Source of the DNA: Gemmatimonadota bacterium
Lineage (GTDB): Bacteria > Gemmatimonadota > Gemmatimonadetes > Gemmatimonadales > GWC2-71-9
Reading direction: 5' to 3'
NCBI GenBank assembly: GCA_009692185.1
Contig: SHZT01000009.1
Location: 1 to 49,334 of the forward strand
DNA: 49,334 nucleotides
Below, in pieces: positions 34,200 through 39,383 of this stretch (positions are counted from its first letter, which is position 1; every line of letters begins with the position of its first letter). The notes beneath the pieces were generated by a model. The model was given only the letters and a program-made list of their open reading frames with translations, ran no database searches and was not told the origin of the DNA. Position numbers and translations under genes: made by a program.

Positions 34200-35564
34200 C
34201 TAACTGACCTTCTGCGGCTTAGGCGCCCCCTCCGGCCCCTTGTCCCAGTCCTGCGCGCTGGAAACGTTGGGCATGCCCCACTGGTGACCGTTCCAGCCGT
34301 CGAACCCGTCCATCTTGAACGCCCAGAACCCGGTCACCTTGTCCGAGATCACGATCAGCCCGTCGGCATTGCGGACGTCCACGCCCCATGCGCCGTTGTC
34401 CACGCCGCCCGAGTTGGGCGGACGCGCGGGACCGCGGAACGTGACACCGGCCTTGTGCGGGCATTGGCACGTGTAGTAGTGGCCCACGGTGTACGGATTG
34501 GTGGGATCCATCATGTTGAACACCTGCAGGCCATCCTCGTAACCCGACACGAAGACGTACGGCCAGCGCACCTCGTGATTGTGCGACAGCGCCCGCCAGT
34601 CGGCGTTCCAGGCCCCGATCGGACGGGAGATCACCTTGACCTTGCCCTCGAGCCCGGGTTGCAGGTCGAAAATCTTGAGCGGCGCGTACTGGTATTCCGA
34701 CTCGACCACGGCGTAGCGGCCATCGGGCGTCGGCGTGAAGGTGTGACTGTTGCCGGCGCCCGCGTGGCCGCTGATCTGGGTGATCAGCCTGGGCTCCTCC
34801 GGCCGGGTAATGTCGAAGATGTAGAAGCCGCTTTCCCACGCGGCGCCGTAGAACTTGTCCTGTTTCGTCGCGGGGTCGTAGGCCAGGTAGAAGTCGTGGT
34901 AGCTGCCCCGGCCGGTCGGGGCGTCGAGCACCGGCACCTGGCCGATCCGTCCCTGTTTCGCGTCCCCCGCCAGGAACCGGTCCATGTCGTAGATCTTGGC
35001 CTGTGGACCCGACGTGGCAAAGAGCAGCGCGCGCCCATCCGAATGCTTGTACATGAACGTGTTGTGAAACCCGTTGGGCACGTCGGGCTCGCGGATCCGA
35101 CCGGCCTCCTTGATGCCCGCCGTGTCCGGCAGTGACGTCACGTCGGTGATGACCGCGCCCAGGTCCCAGTCCGGCCCGCTCTGACCAAACTGCATCGCCT
35201 GCACGTAGTAGTAACGGCCTTTCGTCTTGAAATGCTGGGCGTCCATGCCGGCACGACCCTGATGGATCTCGGGGTTCTCGATGTGCCAGTTGTAGATCAC
35301 CCGGGCGCGCGCGGGATCCTTGAGGCTGATGACGGCGAAGCCCGGCTGATCGAAGCGCCGAGCCACGTAGGCGTACGGGCGGCTCAACTCCTGCTCGATG
35401 TCCAGGTCCGTCACCGCGCCGTACTCGGCCAGCTGCACGTGGGATATCAGCCTGATGTTGGGGCTGTTGCCGAACTTCTGGCCCGGATCGGGGGGCGGCG
35501 TGACCTGCGCCCCGAGCGGTGCCGAGAGCAGAGAAACGCACTGAAATAGCAGAATGCGACGCAT
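34200..35564 (-). CDS. Secreted beta-propeller-like protein, copy 1 of 3
   Basis: 454 residues from ATG 35564 (GGAGGTCTA upstream). Signal peptide RRILLFQCVSLLSAPLGAQ. The repeating blade pattern resembles LVIVD/propeller proteins: YAYVARRFDQPGFAVISLKDPARARVIYNW, GAVITDVTSLPDTAGI, HNTFMYKHSDGRALLFAT, GFYIFDITRPEEPRLITQISG, SHTFTPTPDGRYAVVES, HNHEVRWPYVFVSGYEDGLQVFNMMDPTNPYTVG. It ends with the tail GWNGHQWGMPNVSS...APKPQKVS shared by all three copies. Unlike its sisters it has a Cys pair (YYTCQCPHKAG). Conserved His residues could bind metal, as in SBP56-type methanethiol oxidases, but that is speculation. Periplasmic. Confidence 0.75.
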   Translation of the reverse strand: MRRILLFQCVSLLSAPLGAQVTPPPDPGQKFGNSPNIRLISHVQLAEYGAVTDLDIEQELSRPYAYVARRFDQPGFAVISLKDPARARVIYNWHIENPEIHQGRAGMDAQHFKTKGRYYYVQAMQFGQSGPDWDLGAVITDVTSLPDTAGIKEAGRIREPDVPNGFHNTFMYKHSDGRALLFATSGPQAKIYDMDRFLAGDAKQGRIGQVPVLDAPTGRGSYHDFYLAYDPATKQDKFYGAAWESGFYIFDITRPEEPRLITQISGHAGAGNSHTFTPTPDGRYAVVESEYQYAPLKIFDLQPGLEGKVKVISRPIGAWNADWRALSHNHEVRWPYVFVSGYEDGLQVFNMMDPTNPYTVGHYYTCQCPHKAGVTFRGPARPPNSGGVDNGAWGVDVRNADGLIVISDKVTGFWAFKMDGFDGWNGHQWGMPNVSSAQDWDKGPEGAPKPQKVS

Positions 35565-35577
35565 TAGACCTCCGTTG

Positions 35578-35593
35578 GCGGATAAGCGGACGG
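35578..35593. repeat. Two-copy GCGGATAA/GCGGACGG array
   Basis: Degenerate two-unit member of the 8-bp family in the 46-base gap between copies 1 and 2 of the propeller genes, 13 bases upstream of the copy 1 start on its strand. Confidence 0.6.
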
Positions 35594-35610
35594 GTGAAAG
35601 CAGTCACCCG

Positions 35611-37017
35611 CTAGCTGACTTTCTGTGGCTTCGGCGCTCCCTCCGGCCCGTTATCCCAGTCCTGCACACTTGACACGTTGGGCATGCCCCACTGGTGACC
35701 GTTCCAGCCGTCGAATCCGTCCATCTTGAGCACCCAGAGCCCTGTACTCATGTCGCTCACGAAGATCATTCCGTCGGCGTTGCGGACCTCCACGCCGAAG
35801 GCGCCGTTGGCGTTGCCGGTGCCCTCTTCCGGCCGGTCGACGCCACCCCAGCCCCGCTTCCGGGGCCCGTCGTACGTGTCGTAGTAACCCACGGTGTAGG
35901 GGTTGGTGGGATCCATCATGTTGAAGACGTGCATCCCGTCTTCGTAGCCCGACACGAACACGTACGGCCAGCGGACCTCGTGGTTGTGCGGGAGGTTGCG
36001 CCAGTTCGAGGTCCATGCGCCGATGGGCCGCGAGATCGTCTTGACCTCGCCGGACAACCCCGGCTTGAGGTCGTAAATCCGGAGCGGCGAATACACGTAC
36101 TCCATTTCGCCGACGGCGTAGCGGCCGTCCGGGGTCGGCGTGAACGTGTGATAGCTCGCGCCGCCGGCGACACCCGTGATCGAGGTAATCAGCTTCGGTT
36201 CCTCGGGCCGGGTCACATCGAACACGAAATACCCCGCCGACCACGCCGCGCCGTAGAACTTGTCCTGGTGGGTGGCGGGGTCGTAGCCCACGTAGAAGTC
36301 GTGGTAGGTCCCGGTCGTGTTTTGTGTTCCCGCCCGGGGAGCGGCGGCGGCCGGGGCCGTCGTTTCGGGAATCGGGATGCGCGCCACGAACCCCTGGTCT
36401 TCCGCGCCGCTGACGAACCGGTCCAGGTCCCAGACGCTGGTGAACGGACCGGTGCTGGTAGTGAACAGGAGGACCCGGCCGTCGGAGTGCTTGTAGGTGA
36501 ACAGGTTGTGGATTCCGCCCGGATTGGCCGGCACCCGCAATCGCCGCACCTCCCTGATCGTCGTCGTGTCGGGCAAGCCGGTCACGTCGAACACGATCGC
36601 GCCGACTTCCTCGTTGGGGCTCCCCTTGAGAATCTGGAATGACTGGGCGTAGTAGTACCTGCCCTTGAGCTTGAAGTACTTGCCCTGGAGCCCGCCGTAG
36701 GCGCGCAACAGCTCGGGCTTCTCCATGGTCCAGGTGAACAGCAGGCGGGCCTTCGACGGATCCTTGACGCTCACGATGCTGAACCCGGTTGACCGCGTGG
36801 TCCCCTGCATGCGGGGCACGTACACGTACGGCCGGGACAATTCCTGCTCCGCCTCGATGTCGCCGACCGTGAACAGCCGGCCCAGCGGGACGTGCGAGAG
36901 CACGTGCACGTTGCGGCTGCCCTGCTCCCCGGGCGGATGGTCCTGTGCCCGCGCGGGGCCGGCAATTGCAGCCATCAAGGCGACGGGCAGGGTCAGGGTG
37001 ATTCCCGATCGCATCAT
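35611..37017 (-). CDS. Secreted beta-propeller-like protein, copy 2 of 3
   Basis: 468 residues from ATG 37017 (GGGAGGA directly upstream; ATG 37014 equally possible). Signal peptide MRSGITLTLPVALMAAIAGPARAQ. Same order of blades as copy 1: YVYVPRMQGTTRSTGFSIVSVKDPSKARLLFTW, GAIVFDVTGLPDTTTI, HNLFTYKHSDGRVLLFTT, GYFVFDVTRPEEPKLITSITG, YHTFTPTPDGRYAVGEMEY, HNHEVRWPYVFVSGYEDGMHVFNMMDPTNPYTVGYYDTYDG, and the invariant tail. It has an extra Ala/Pro-rich insert (ETTAAPAAAAPRAG type). Frames upstream of 37017 are spurious. Function unknown. Confidence 0.75.
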   Translation of the reverse strand: MMRSGITLTLPVALMAAIAGPARAQDHPPGEQGSRNVHVLSHVPLGRLFTVGDIEAEQELSRPYVYVPRMQGTTRSTGFSIVSVKDPSKARLLFTWTMEKPELLRAYGGLQGKYFKLKGRYYYAQSFQILKGSPNEEVGAIVFDVTGLPDTTTIREVRRLRVPANPGGIHNLFTYKHSDGRVLLFTTSTGPFTSVWDLDRFVSGAEDQGFVARIPIPETTAPAAAAPRAGTQNTTGTYHDFYVGYDPATHQDKFYGAAWSAGYFVFDVTRPEEPKLITSITGVAGGASYHTFTPTPDGRYAVGEMEYVYSPLRIYDLKPGLSGEVKTISRPIGAWTSNWRNLPHNHEVRWPYVFVSGYEDGMHVFNMMDPTNPYTVGYYDTYDGPRKRGWGGVDRPEEGTGNANGAFGVEVRNADGMIFVSDMSTGLWVLKMDGFDGWNGHQWGMPNVSSVQDWDNGPEGAPKPQKVS

Positions 37018-37063
37018 TCCTCCCAGTTGACTGTTGGCCTTGAGCGCCCGTCCGTCCGTTGAT

Positions 37064-37081
37064 CCCGCCCTGAAGGGCGGG
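37064..37081. repeat. CCCGCCC-TGAA-GGGCGGG palindrome
   Basis: Perfect 7-bp stem with TGAA loop upstream of propeller copy 2. Same TGAA-loop design as the palindromes at 33943 and 34084 and the CTGAA-centred parts of the gpmI element. Confidence 0.7.
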
Positions 37082-37255
37082 CGTCGAAACGGGATCGGAC
37101 ATCGGGGACGAAGATGCGGTTTTTCGCCACGCAGTGCAACGAATTGGGTGCACGGGAGACAGGGGCTGCCACTAGGGTCATTGCGCGGCGCGGTGGCGCG
37201 TGCAGGGTTCTTCGTCTCGGACCTTCGGGTCTTGCCTGGTTCGCAACCGATTGGT

Positions 37256-37338
37256 GCTGGTGTGGCGAAATGGCAAACGCAGAGACCTGTCACGTCTCCG
37301 GGCGAAAGCCCTTGTGGGTTCGACTCCCTCCACCAGCA
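37256..37338 (+). tRNA. Class II tRNA, Leu-like body with anticodon GTC
   Basis: Full cloverleaf by eye. Acceptor GCTGGTG / CACCAGC (7 bp), discriminator A, CCA not encoded (ACCC follows). D-arm GCG / CGC with loop AAATGGCAAA, as in tRNA-Leu. Anticodon arm GAGAC / GTCTC with 7-base loop CTGTCAC, so anticodon 37289-37291 is GTC (Asp codons). Long variable arm GGGC-GAAA-GCCC. T-arm GTGGG-TTCGACT-CCCTC with one T:T mismatch. Long variable arm, A73 and the D-arm point to Leu (or Tyr), but the anticodon belongs to neither. Either a decayed or mutated tRNA or an unusual decoder. A terminator follows at 37425. Confidence 0.75.
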
Positions 37339-37389
37339 CCCGCCGCGCTACGCCTTGCGCCCGGAACTGGGGCGGGATATCGTGTGAAT

Positions 37390-37403
37390 ACGTGACAGGT
37401 CTC
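37390..37403 (+). other. 14-nt reverse complement of the tRNA anticodon arm
   Basis: ACGTGACAGGTCTC is the exact reverse complement of 37282-37295 (anticodon stem, whole loop and start of the 3' stem). It lies 52 bases after the tRNA, before the terminator, so it would be in the 3' trailer of the precursor and could pair with the anticodon arm. Confidence 0.85.
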
Positions 37404-37424
37404 GCGCGGCTTTCCAGCCACGCA

Positions 37425-37464
37425 ACGAGAGCCGAGGGGCGCAAGCTCCTCGGCTCTCGTGTTT
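37425..37464 (+). terminator. Strong hairpin terminator after the tRNA
   Basis: 13-bp perfect stem ACGAGAGCCGAGG / CCTCGGCTCTCGT (37425-37437 with 37448-37460), 10-base loop, then GTTTCC. It lies between the plus-strand tRNA and the end of the minus-strand propeller copy 3 (stop 37479) and may serve both directions. Confidence 0.8.
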
Positions 37465-37478
37465 CCAGCCTGAACCCG

Positions 37479-38825
37479 CTAGCTGACTTTCTGCGGTTTG
37501 GGCGCCCCGTCCGGCCCGTTGTCCCAGTCCTGGACGCTGGAAACATTGGGCATGCCCCATTGGTGGCCGTTCCAGCCGTCGAACCCGTCCATCTTGAATG
37601 CCCAGAAGCCGGTCATCATGTCGCTGATGACGATCAGGCCATCCGCATTGCGAATGTCGATTCCCCACGCGCCCTGGTAGATCGGCCAGGTATACGGACT
37701 GTTCGGCCGGTCCGCACCCTTCGCGTGCCCGCCGTCGAACGTGTCGTAGTAGCCCACCGTGTACGGATTGGTCGGATCCATCATGTTGAACACATACAGC
37801 CCGTCTTCGTAGCCCGACACGAATACGTACGGCCAGCGGACCTCGTGATTGTGGGCGAGGTTTTTCCAGTCGGCATTCCACGCACCGATCGGCCGGGTGA
37901 TGTTCTTGACCGTACCGTCGAGCCCTGGCTTGAGGTCGAACACCCTGAGCGGCTGGTACTGGAACTCCGTCTCCGCGATCGCGTACCGGCCATCGGGCGT
38001 GGGCGTGAACGTGTGGCCCCAGTCCACTCCTGAGACGCCGGTGATCGTGGTCAGCAGCTTCGGCTCGGCGAGGTTCGTCACGTCGAAGACGTAGTAGCCG
38101 CCGCCGCCCGCCGCGTACAGGCGGTCCTGGTGGCTGGCGGGATCGTATCCGGCGTAGAAGTCGTGCCAGTTCTTGGAGCGGGCGCCGGGCGTATCGGGAA
38201 CGGGCACCTTGCCGACGAGGCCGCGACCGGGGTCACCCGCGACAACCTTGTCGATGTCCCAGATAGCCGCGTATCCGCCGGACGTGGTGGTGAACACCAG
38301 CGCCGCCCCACTCGAGTGCTTGTAGGCGAACGATTCGTGAAAGCCGCCGAGGGCTTCCGGGACCCGCACCCGTGCCACTTCCCGGATCTTCGACGTATCG
38401 GGAAGGCCGGTGACGTCGAACACGATGGCGCCGAGATCGTTATCGGGCCCCGAGGCGGAGAACTGGAACCCGTTGAAGAAGTAGTAGCGGCCCCGCGTCT
38501 TCACCAACGCCGGTGCCAGTGAACCCGACCCCTGGTGCAACTCGGGCCGGTCGATGCGCCAGGAGTACATGACGTAGGCCTTCGCGGGATCCTTCAGATT
38601 GACAATATCAAAACCCGACGGGTTCAGCCGGCGGTCCACGTAGGCGTACGGACGTGAGAGATCCTGCTCGAGCTCGATATCGGACGTGGTCTCGTTGGCG
38701 CCCAGCGGGAGGTGCGACAACACGCGCACGTTTGAGCTGCCCTGCTTGCCCGCCGGGAACTGCGCGTGGGCCGCCGTGCAGAAGAGGAGCAATCCCACCA
38801 GTGATACCAGGGTCGTTCGCGTCAT
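37479..38825 (-). CDS. Secreted beta-propeller-like protein, copy 3 of 3
   Basis: 448 residues from ATG 38825. Signal peptide MTRTTLVSLVGLLLFCTAAHAQ. Blades as in the other copies: YAYVDRRLNPSGFDIVNLKDPAKAYVMYSW, GAIVFDVTGLPDTSKI, HESFAYKHSSGAALVFTT, GYYVFDVTNLAEPKLLTTITG, GHTFTPTPDGRYAIAETEF, HNHEVRWPYVFVSGYEDGLYVFNMMDPTNPYTVGYYDTFDG, and the invariant GWNGHQWGMPNVSS tail. First gene of the triplet in transcription order; the tRNA region separates it from copy 2. Divergent from nfeD. Confidence 0.75.
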   Translation of the reverse strand: MTRTTLVSLVGLLLFCTAAHAQFPAGKQGSSNVRVLSHLPLGANETTSDIELEQDLSRPYAYVDRRLNPSGFDIVNLKDPAKAYVMYSWRIDRPELHQGSGSLAPALVKTRGRYYFFNGFQFSASGPDNDLGAIVFDVTGLPDTSKIREVARVRVPEALGGFHESFAYKHSSGAALVFTTTSGGYAAIWDIDKVVAGDPGRGLVGKVPVPDTPGARSKNWHDFYAGYDPASHQDRLYAAGGGGYYVFDVTNLAEPKLLTTITGVSGVDWGHTFTPTPDGRYAIAETEFQYQPLRVFDLKPGLDGTVKNITRPIGAWNADWKNLAHNHEVRWPYVFVSGYEDGLYVFNMMDPTNPYTVGYYDTFDGGHAKGADRPNSPYTWPIYQGAWGIDIRNADGLIVISDMMTGFWAFKMDGFDGWNGHQWGMPNVSSVQDWDNGPDGAPKPQKVS

Positions 38826-38945
38826 CAGGCCTCTCCTGAACGTGGAAGACAACCCGCCGTTATCGGTGCCAATGTCGTCACCCAACGCAAGGCGGGCAAG
38901 CCGTGCTGACTGGCGGAGACGCGTCCAACACCCCAAGATGAACCC

Positions 38946-39383
38946 ATGAGTGCAACCCAATTGTGGCTGCTGGCCGGCGTCGGCCTCATGATCGCCGAGG
39001 TGGTGGCGCCGGGGTTCTGGCTGATGAGCGTGGCGGTCGGCTGTTTCGTGGCCTCGGTCGCCGGCCTCCTGCCTTTCGGGCTGCCGGCCCAGGTGGTCGC
39101 CTTCGCCGGCGGCACCGTGGCGAGCCTGGTGTTGTTTCGCCCATTCCTGCTGAGGCGGTTTCCCCGAATCGTCGTGCGCACCAACATGGATGCGCTGATC
39201 GGGAAGACCGCGATCGTGACCCAGCGCCTGGGGCCGCAGGGCCAGCTGGGCCGGCTCGTGGTGGAGGGCGAGGACTGGCGCGGCATGTCGCTGGACGACG
39301 CGGCCCTCGAGCCGGGCACGCGGGTGATCGTGGTGGAAGTGGACGGAACCACACTCAAGGTCGACCGGGAGGGAACGTCATGA
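38946..39383 (+). CDS. NfeD-family membrane protein (short form)
   Basis: 145 residues. Two to three N-terminal membrane helices (LWLLAGVGLMIAEVVAPGFWLMSVAVGCFVASVAGLL, VVAFAGGTVASLVLF) followed by a C-terminal OB-fold domain (ALIGKTAIVTQRLGPQGQLGRLVVEGEDWRGMSLDDAALEPGTRVIVVEVDGTTLKV). This is the classical partner of SPFH proteins; the next gene is exactly that and overlaps by four bases (ATGA). The OB domain is thought to bind the SPFH scaffold. Divergent from the propeller operon with a 120-base intergenic region in which I see no clear operator. Confidence 0.92.
   Translation: MSATQLWLLAGVGLMIAEVVAPGFWLMSVAVGCFVASVAGLLPFGLPAQVVAFAGGTVASLVLFRPFLLRRFPRIVVRTNMDALIGKTAIVTQRLGPQGQLGRLVVEGEDWRGMSLDDAALEPGTRVIVVEVDGTTLKVDREGTS

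Follow-up and report, generated by a model that had tools for sequence, protein, structure and literature searches.

The window analysed here, a 49,334-nt stretch of DNA from a Gemmatimonadota bacterium, contains an odd tRNA gene and, 53 bases downstream of it, a predicted gene for a separate small RNA (sRNA) (Table 1). The tRNA is the only one called by ARAGORN in the window (37255-37341 on the + strand, as tRNA-Asp(gtc)), and it matches the Rfam tRNA family RF00005 at 37256-37338 well above the cut-off (53.2 bits; cut-off 29). It is a class II tRNA with a 7-bp acceptor stem (GCTGGTG/CACCAGC), a Leu-type D-arm, a variable hairpin (GGGC-GAAA-GCCC), the anticodon GTC at 37289-37291 and the discriminator A73 at 37338; CCA is not encoded, and the T-stem has a single T:T mismatch (50-64). 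An earlier note on this DNA had described a near-complete class II Leu-type tRNA with a GTC anticodon. By ARAGORN and the Rfam score the tRNA is complete, and the acceptor stem, D-arm, anticodon arm, variable hairpin, A73 and T:T mismatch had all been read correctly.

The predicted sRNA gene (37355-37466), with its covarying complement to the tRNA, is a feature that the earlier note did not contain. A sigma70-type promoter leads into a 5' tail of 14 nt, after which come a hairpin and a strong terminator. In an inverted-repeat scan, the anticodon arm GAGACCTGTCACGT of the tRNA was found to have an exact reverse complement at 37390-37403, i.e. in the 5' tail, which is predicted to be unpaired within the folded sRNA. 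In the host genome, this 14-mer occurs only at the tRNA and sRNA sites, with one additional site that has 1 mismatch. The same arrangement recurs in the homologous loci described below. Promoter-like sites with a -35 starting with TTG, a spacer of 16-19 nt and a -10 whose end lies 5-12 nt ahead of the pairing core are present in 45/45 loci and score on average 9.2 vs 6.0 (sd 1.2) in dinucleotide shuffles, while a terminator-like hairpin follows the pairing region in the full-length loci, giving predicted sRNAs of 65-83 nt (one locus, L052, is cut by a contig end, and terminators and lengths are those of the full-length loci). Together, the promoter-like sites and the terminator hairpins argue for a separate sRNA gene. 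In many members, the loop of the sRNA hairpin (e.g. CCAGTTTCGC), as seen by eye, is the complement of the D-loop of the tRNA (GCGAAACTGG), and in origin the sRNA looks as if it were an inverted copy of the 5' half of the tRNA.

Table 1. Features of the odd tRNA and of the predicted downstream sRNA gene in the window
Feature	Position	Strand	Evidence
Presumed 5' leader of the tRNA-like transcript	37178..37255	+	Family complementarity to the D-arm to anticodon-arm half of the tRNA; precursor folds
Class II Leu-type tRNA, anticodon GTC (Asp)	37256..37338	+	ARAGORN; Rfam RF00005, 53.2 bits; family alignment A1
Anticodon arm GAGAC-CTGTCAC-GTCTC of the odd tRNA	37282..37298	+	Sequence; sRNA target via the exact 14-nt reverse complement at 37390-37403
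sRNA promoter: -35 TTGCGC (37355-37360), 17-nt spacer, -10 TATCGT (37378-37383)	37355..37383	+	Promoter-like site in 45/45 loci
sRNA 5' tail ACGTGACAGGTCTC, exact reverse complement of the tRNA anticodon arm	37390..37403	+	Covariation across 45 loci
sRNA internal hairpin GCGCGGCTTTCCAGCCACGC	37404..37423	+	Fold; comparison of loci by eye
sRNA intrinsic terminator: 16-bp stem (37425-37460) and T-rich tail	37425..37466	+	Inverted repeat; fold; comparable hairpins in other full-length loci

Members and distribution of the family

In total, 49 homologous loci with a complement and the same layout were identified, nearly all of them in Gemmatimonadota and one in Acidobacteriota. A DNA search in 101 relatives, which made no assumption on the loop sequence, yielded Leu-like tRNAs of class II whose anticodons are odd; downstream of each lies a complement of that tRNA's own, different, anticodon arm. 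When 84,980 species genomes were scanned with a pattern, 39 stretches matched; almost all carry a Gemmatimonadota title, three are in bins titled Deltaproteobacteria or Chloroflexi and one (L103) is in an Acidobacteria gp2 MAG. Because the scan pattern fixed Y33, Y36, A37 and M38, this part of the sample is biased with respect to the loop; a family member found later (L203) has G37. An archaeal pattern match (L084) had no complement. Among the first 45 loci, the anticodons are CGC (21), CAC (10), GAC (3), GTC (2), GGT (2), CTC (2), and GAT, AGC, GGC, GCC and TTC (one each). Thus, where the earlier note had considered that relatives might have an ordinary Leu anticodon at the same locus, the relatives instead carry other odd anticodons. 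With 49 conserved loci, a decayed tRNA or a base error is rejected, and a chance fold or a base-calling oddity is ruled out by two more odd Leu-like tRNAs in the host and dozens in relatives.

In a census of 395 genomes of the phylum using the strict pattern, 18 genomes had at least 34 copies, with 1 to 5 each, a lower bound since some members fail the exact pattern; all carriers belong to two families of the window's order, and a reversed control pattern gave zero matches. In 297 Acidobacteriota genomes, only that of L103 matched. L103 keeps the promoter, the complement and the terminator and is without complementarity in the leader, which argues that the system consists, at its core, of tRNA and sRNA. 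Rfam contained no matching family beyond tRNA. A covariance model (R1) was useless as a detector because ordinary tRNA-Leu match it equally well, and a tree calculated without the anticodon arm held too little signal on whether the odd tRNAs form one clade.

Several observations concern the placement of copies. On one contig (C96 of genome G037), a decayed tRNA-like sequence without an sRNA (L176:52-150) and an intact unit 319 bp downstream of it are arranged head to tail; this one tRNA copy that lacks an sRNA is itself broken. On some contigs, other units cluster within 3-6 kb. A viral contig (IMGVR_UViG_2512564078; L116), the sole viral-contig match, has a Leu-like tRNA of class II; its loop is CTCGCAA (CGC anticodon), its 3' end is poor and no complement lies downstream of it. 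A plasmid-borne unit was sought in 72,556 plasmids and gave no match.

Cognate pairing between the sRNA and the tRNA

Scored against their own downstream regions, the anticodon arms of 45 loci have a mean best duplex of 16.0, compared with 7.4 against the regions of other loci (arbitrary units in which a Watson-Crick pair counts as 1), and cognate complementarity is present in 45/45 loci. Complement scores did not exceed 8.3 for ordinary Leu tRNAs of the same genomes and 9.0 for the 37 testable ordinary tRNAs of the host. In a joint ungapped alignment of the 45 loci (A2), 79.9% of the cells are paired vs 57.3% in shuffled alignments (0/500), and the covariation score is 0.612 vs 0.179 in shuffled alignments (0/500) and at best 0.148 in slid controls; because complementarity was used to choose the register, the percentage of paired cells is inflated, but the contrast with the slid versions is not. 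Shuffled, slid and cross-locus controls are all far below the cognate values. Loop columns 12-18 pair in nearly every sequence, and in most columns both sides have changed. The anticodon loop has no partner inside the tRNA, and its covariation therefore indicates that it pairs with the sRNA.

For the tail-arm duplex of the window, an energy of approximately -31 kcal/mol is predicted. For the three pairs of the host, the predicted cognate duplexes have -30.7, -35.7 and -23.3 kcal/mol vs -13 to -22 kcal/mol for the non-cognate combinations, and in multi-copy genomes the cognate pairs are mostly far stronger than the non-cognate ones. Across the family, the modelled duplexes comprise 13-22 bp and would unfold the anticodon arm. 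It is, on this comparative evidence, well supported that cognate pairing is under selection and maintained by covariation, and that the copies are orthogonal to each other. We conclude that the sRNA very probably acts on the tRNA by pairing.

Leucine identity of the tRNA body

In the family alignment (A1), A73 is present in all members; a single apparent G73 (L087/L174) is a parser error that arises from a T-loop insert. U8, A14, G18G19 and A20a are invariant, A15 is present in at least 90% of the members, the arms are a 7-bp acceptor stem and a 5-bp T-stem, and acceptor pairs 3 and 6 show compensated changes across loci. A few members lack U55, with C55 in four, and decoding may be weak in these. 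Overall, the Leu identity set (A73, A15-U48, G18G19, A20a, U8:A14 and the D/T loop contacts) is invariant or nearly so. Comparison of the loci shows an intact tRNA fold with Leu identity bases next to the separate, predicted sRNA gene. Compensated stems and invariant tertiary bases across the loci differ from the broken fold and relaxed constraint of a tRNA pseudogene. The T:T mismatch in the T-stem, which had been taken as compatible with decay, also occurs in two other family members, with fold, A73 and the complement in the sRNA retained across the 49 loci; we therefore do not regard it as a sign of decay.

In the E. coli leucine identity set, A73 is a determinant while the anticodon is not (PMC9976931). 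Because the family bases match this set and LeuRS of E. coli does not use the anticodon, charging with leucine is presumed, i.e. by analogy with the E. coli rules the odd tRNA would be a substrate of LeuRS. Despite CGC (Ala) being the most frequent anticodon, the family has no conserved G3:U70 as for AlaRS; G73, as for SerRS, is absent as well. The anticodons (CGC, CAC, GAC, GTC, GGT, CTC and others) are not those of leucine and do not match leucine codons. U33 is near-universal in tRNAs; in the family, it is replaced by C33 in 13/45 loci, and decoding should therefore be weaker there.

In a species of the same genus (G001), an ordinary tRNA-Leu(TAG) and two odd-anticodon tRNAs (L215, L216 and L217; contigs C38, C48 and C262) share an approximately 45-nt insert in the T-loop between T54 and T55 (GCACGCCCACTCC...GCGTGTGCTTCGCAA). 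In that genome, the insert occurs at these three sites only, and 100 relatives gave no exact match to it; it has the appearance of a T-loop intron or insertion that is unusual for a bacterial tRNA. A different insert of approximately 58 nt lies at the same T54/T55 joint in L174 (the same unit as L087; contig C120 of G074). Unless spliced out, these inserts would disable three odd-anticodon members.

Leader and region upstream of the tRNA

In most Gemmatimonadota copies, the presumed leader contains a stretch complementary to the tRNA's own 5' half, with a family mean z of -2.4 and 28/42 loci with values reached by at most 5/100 shuffles. In the window copy, this complementarity is weak (z -1.5), and ordinary tRNAs have no such leader complementarity. 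Predicted precursors often favour a hairpin between leader and tRNA over the cloverleaf. Type I toxin mRNAs are made as inert primary transcripts (PMC6733600) and, by analogy, the leader is a possible lock in cis.

The scores for a sigma70 promoter upstream of the leader were not above those of shuffles. In the window (37117-37155) and in many other loci, GC-anchored motifs of the CGCRNNRATTTG type lie upstream of the leader, often in two copies approximately 22 nt apart; GGTTAC-like boxes are also found there in many loci. These motifs and boxes may be regulator sites for the tRNA-like gene, a suggestion that is weakened by the matrix having been trained on the same sites.

Host tRNAs and genomic setting

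The host genome (2.63 Mb, 99.9% complete) has a full normal tRNA set. A check on its other Leu and Asp tRNAs, as the earlier note had proposed, yielded a normal tRNA-Asp(GTC) and four normal tRNA-Leu (GAG, TAA, TAG and CAG). Because of this tRNA-Asp(GTC), the odd tRNA is not needed for Asp codons. Codon reassignment is rejected because normal Asp, Ala and Val tRNAs are present. Two further Leu-like tRNAs with odd anticodons, CGC (C14:135508) and CAC (C2:33236), bring the host to three mutually orthogonal tRNA/sRNA pairs. The codons GAC, GCG and GTG of these three copies each account for 32-38 per 1000 codons in the ORFs of the window. Being frequent, they would, if misread, affect most proteins.

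In an all-against-all comparison of the ORFs within 4 kb of the loci, no conserved protein partner emerged. A single ORF family is shared by more than three loci, and those of its members that were read resemble widespread kinase/WD40-like proteins. No transposase or integrase is common to the loci. In the window, the unit is flanked by three tandem paralogous genes of one family (34200-38960, - strand), which is greatly expanded in the genus, with approximately 30 matches in the host and 42 in a sister species, and rare in other relatives. The sister species has an orthologue of the gene at 37479-38960 without a tRNA/sRNA unit beside it. An exact empty site in that species was sought and yielded no clean joint, since the neighbour of the orthologue is a different paralogue.

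Discussion

Based on these comparisons, we suggest that the locus may be a toxin-antitoxin-like unit made solely of RNA, in which a leucylated, mistranslating tRNA is silenced by a dedicated antisense sRNA. We give this reading roughly an even chance. In this model, the first RNA would be a Leu-type class II tRNA, in which the anticodon arm has been replaced such that it now reads frequent non-Leu codons, here GAC (Asp). The second RNA would be the sRNA of 65-83 nt made from its own promoter directly downstream of the tRNA, the 5' tail of which would pair with the anticodon loop and the 5' side of the anticodon stem, and often into the D-stem. A tRNA paired in this way could not decode and would probably be degraded as a duplex. 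The sRNA is presumably short-lived and would be lost upon loss of the locus, transcription shut-off, stress or phage attack; the freed, stable tRNA, charged by LeuRS, would then misinsert leucine. In most Gemmatimonadota copies, the leader matching the 5' half of the tRNA could, in addition, keep the precursor inactive until cleavage by RNase P. In this scheme, we infer expression, leucine charging, decoding, toxicity, the instability of the sRNA and the trigger. A toxin-antitoxin-like role fits best because the units are patchy, occur in several orthogonal copies and share no gene context, and because the one copy without an sRNA is broken. The fuller version, i.e. an RNA-only toxin-antitoxin or anti-phage module with a complementary leader that keeps the precursor inert, is put forward tentatively and at somewhat less than an even chance. 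The earlier note had argued that such a tRNA must be strongly restricted, charged otherwise or non-functional; the dilemma was rightly framed, and of its three branches the evidence favours strong restriction, by a dedicated antisense sRNA.

The main competing explanation is that mistranslation is controlled rather than lethal: a low level of the tRNA would be beneficial through statistical insertion of Leu under stress and the sRNA would set the dose, without addiction or killing. The RNA pairing, the covariation and the promoter evidence fit this explanation equally; mistranslation can help E. coli survive stress (PMC7082066), and C33 in 13/45 loci would reduce decoding, an effect that G33 has in a tRNA-Ser of yeast that mistranslates naturally (PMC11415595). 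We nevertheless consider it unlikely. The distribution is patchy (18/395 genomes of the phylum by the strict pattern), genomes contain 1-5 diverged, orthogonal copies and there is no shared context, which together make a selfish or addictive module likelier than a housekeeping regulator.

The roles could also be inverted, with the tRNA-like RNA as a stable, non-decoding scaffold or sponge that controls the sRNA through its anticodon-type loop and the sRNA as the effector on other targets. U-turn loops are good antisense landing sites, sponges of sRNAs that derive from tRNA transcripts are known (3'ETS-leuZ), C33 and the odd loops fit this reading, and the T-loop inserts in three members would be tolerated in a scaffold. 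However, the sRNA tail tracks the tRNA locus by locus and its 14-mer is without another exact target in the host, and a scaffold would not require an invariant A73, G18G19 and a compensated acceptor stem. We regard this inversion as distinctly improbable. An even lower probability is assigned to a charged Leu-tRNA for non-ribosomal use, such as leucyl transfer to lipids, peptides or protein N-termini, with the tRNA excluded from translation by its anticodon and the sRNA. It would account for a Leu identity that is kept while the anticodon varies freely, and a neighbouring protein would be unnecessary if the user enzyme is encoded elsewhere; yet no neighbour gene is conserved, and the exact tracking of the anticodon arm by the sRNA and the multiple orthogonal copies would be left unexplained.

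Strongly disfavoured is the possibility that there is no function at the RNA level, i.e. that the locus is a decayed tRNA next to an inverted repeat, or a DNA element such as an integration site or a miniature transposon: tRNA anticodon arms are common integration sites, the copies are dispersed and the orthologous neighbour gene of the sister species is without a unit, but the covarying loop complement, promoter and terminator are at fixed places in 45 loci, including one in another phylum, the cloverleafs are intact and the loci have no transposase or integrase in common. An ordinary supplementary tRNA-Asp, charged with Asp and decoding GAC normally, is scarcely credible, for although its loop CTGTCAC is identical to that of the host's own tRNA-Asp, the body is class II with A73 while AspRS requires G73, a normal tRNA-Asp is present, and relatives bear many other anticodons on the same body.

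Among known systems, the proposed toxin-antitoxin-like unit shares with type VIII toxin-antitoxin systems (CreTA, SdsR/RyeA) that both partners are RNA, here predicted RNA genes, and with CreT that translation would be affected through a tRNA, CreT acting by sequestering tRNA-Arg(UCU) (PMC12737573). It differs in that the putative toxin is itself an entire tRNA, which would be silenced by direct base pairing, and in that no CRISPR proteins take part; in type VIII systems the toxin RNA also halts growth and is neutralised by the antitoxin RNA, whereas toxicity is presumed here. As in type I systems (hok/Sok, aapA/IsoA), an antisense sRNA complementary to the toxin RNA, here a putative one, has its own promoter (the covarying complement and the promoter-like site in 45/45 loci) and terminator, there are orthogonal chromosomal paralogues, and the complementary leader is a possible counterpart of the inert primary transcript. 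By contrast, the type I sRNA is encoded on the opposite strand and targets the mRNA for a small toxic protein, whereas here the sRNA lies in tandem downstream on the same strand, its target has the fold of a tRNA and the locus codes for no toxic peptide. The module may, therefore, work like a type I system without being a member.

Allo-tRNAs, with which the earlier note had compared the tRNA, are also bacterial class II tRNAs with unexpected anticodons; they have 8/4 or 9/3 compositions and serine, in some cases alanine, identity (PMC7609411). The odd tRNA of the window has 7/5 arms and A73 and is of the Leu type, and the family as a whole, with 7/5 arms, Leu identity and an antisense partner, has neither an 8/4 or 9/3 composition nor G73, which separates it from the allo-tRNAs. 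Ordinary bacterial tRNA-Leu have the same body, D-arm, A73, A15 and variable arm; the odd members found differ in having C or U at anticodon position 36 instead of A or G, and in a cognate downstream sRNA that was seen with none of the ordinary Leu tRNAs tested.

T-box riboswitches are similar in that an RNA pairs with a tRNA anticodon. In T-boxes, a specifier codon (3-4 bp) and the NCCA end of an ordinary tRNA are involved in the pairing, which controls a downstream mRNA. Here, by contrast, 13-22 bp would open up the arm, and the transcript runs to a terminator without containing a gene. Bacterial antisense sRNAs are known to target mRNAs, plasmid primers or other sRNAs, and we are not aware of any tRNA that has an antisense gene to itself. 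None was found in the open literature either (5.4 million papers). Judged by that literature, a tRNA with a tailored antisense sRNA is a previously undescribed bacterial gene pair.

These observations carry a warning for annotation: tRNAs annotated with odd anticodons should not be read as codon reassignment until the region downstream has been inspected. If our inference holds, bacteria carry code-breaking tRNAs, each locked by a matching RNA. Such units would allow the tolerance of cells to mistranslation to be tested directly in a natural setting. They would also represent a toxin-antitoxin or defence module of a new kind, without protein parts, and a source of modular, orthogonal tRNA/anti-tRNA switches.
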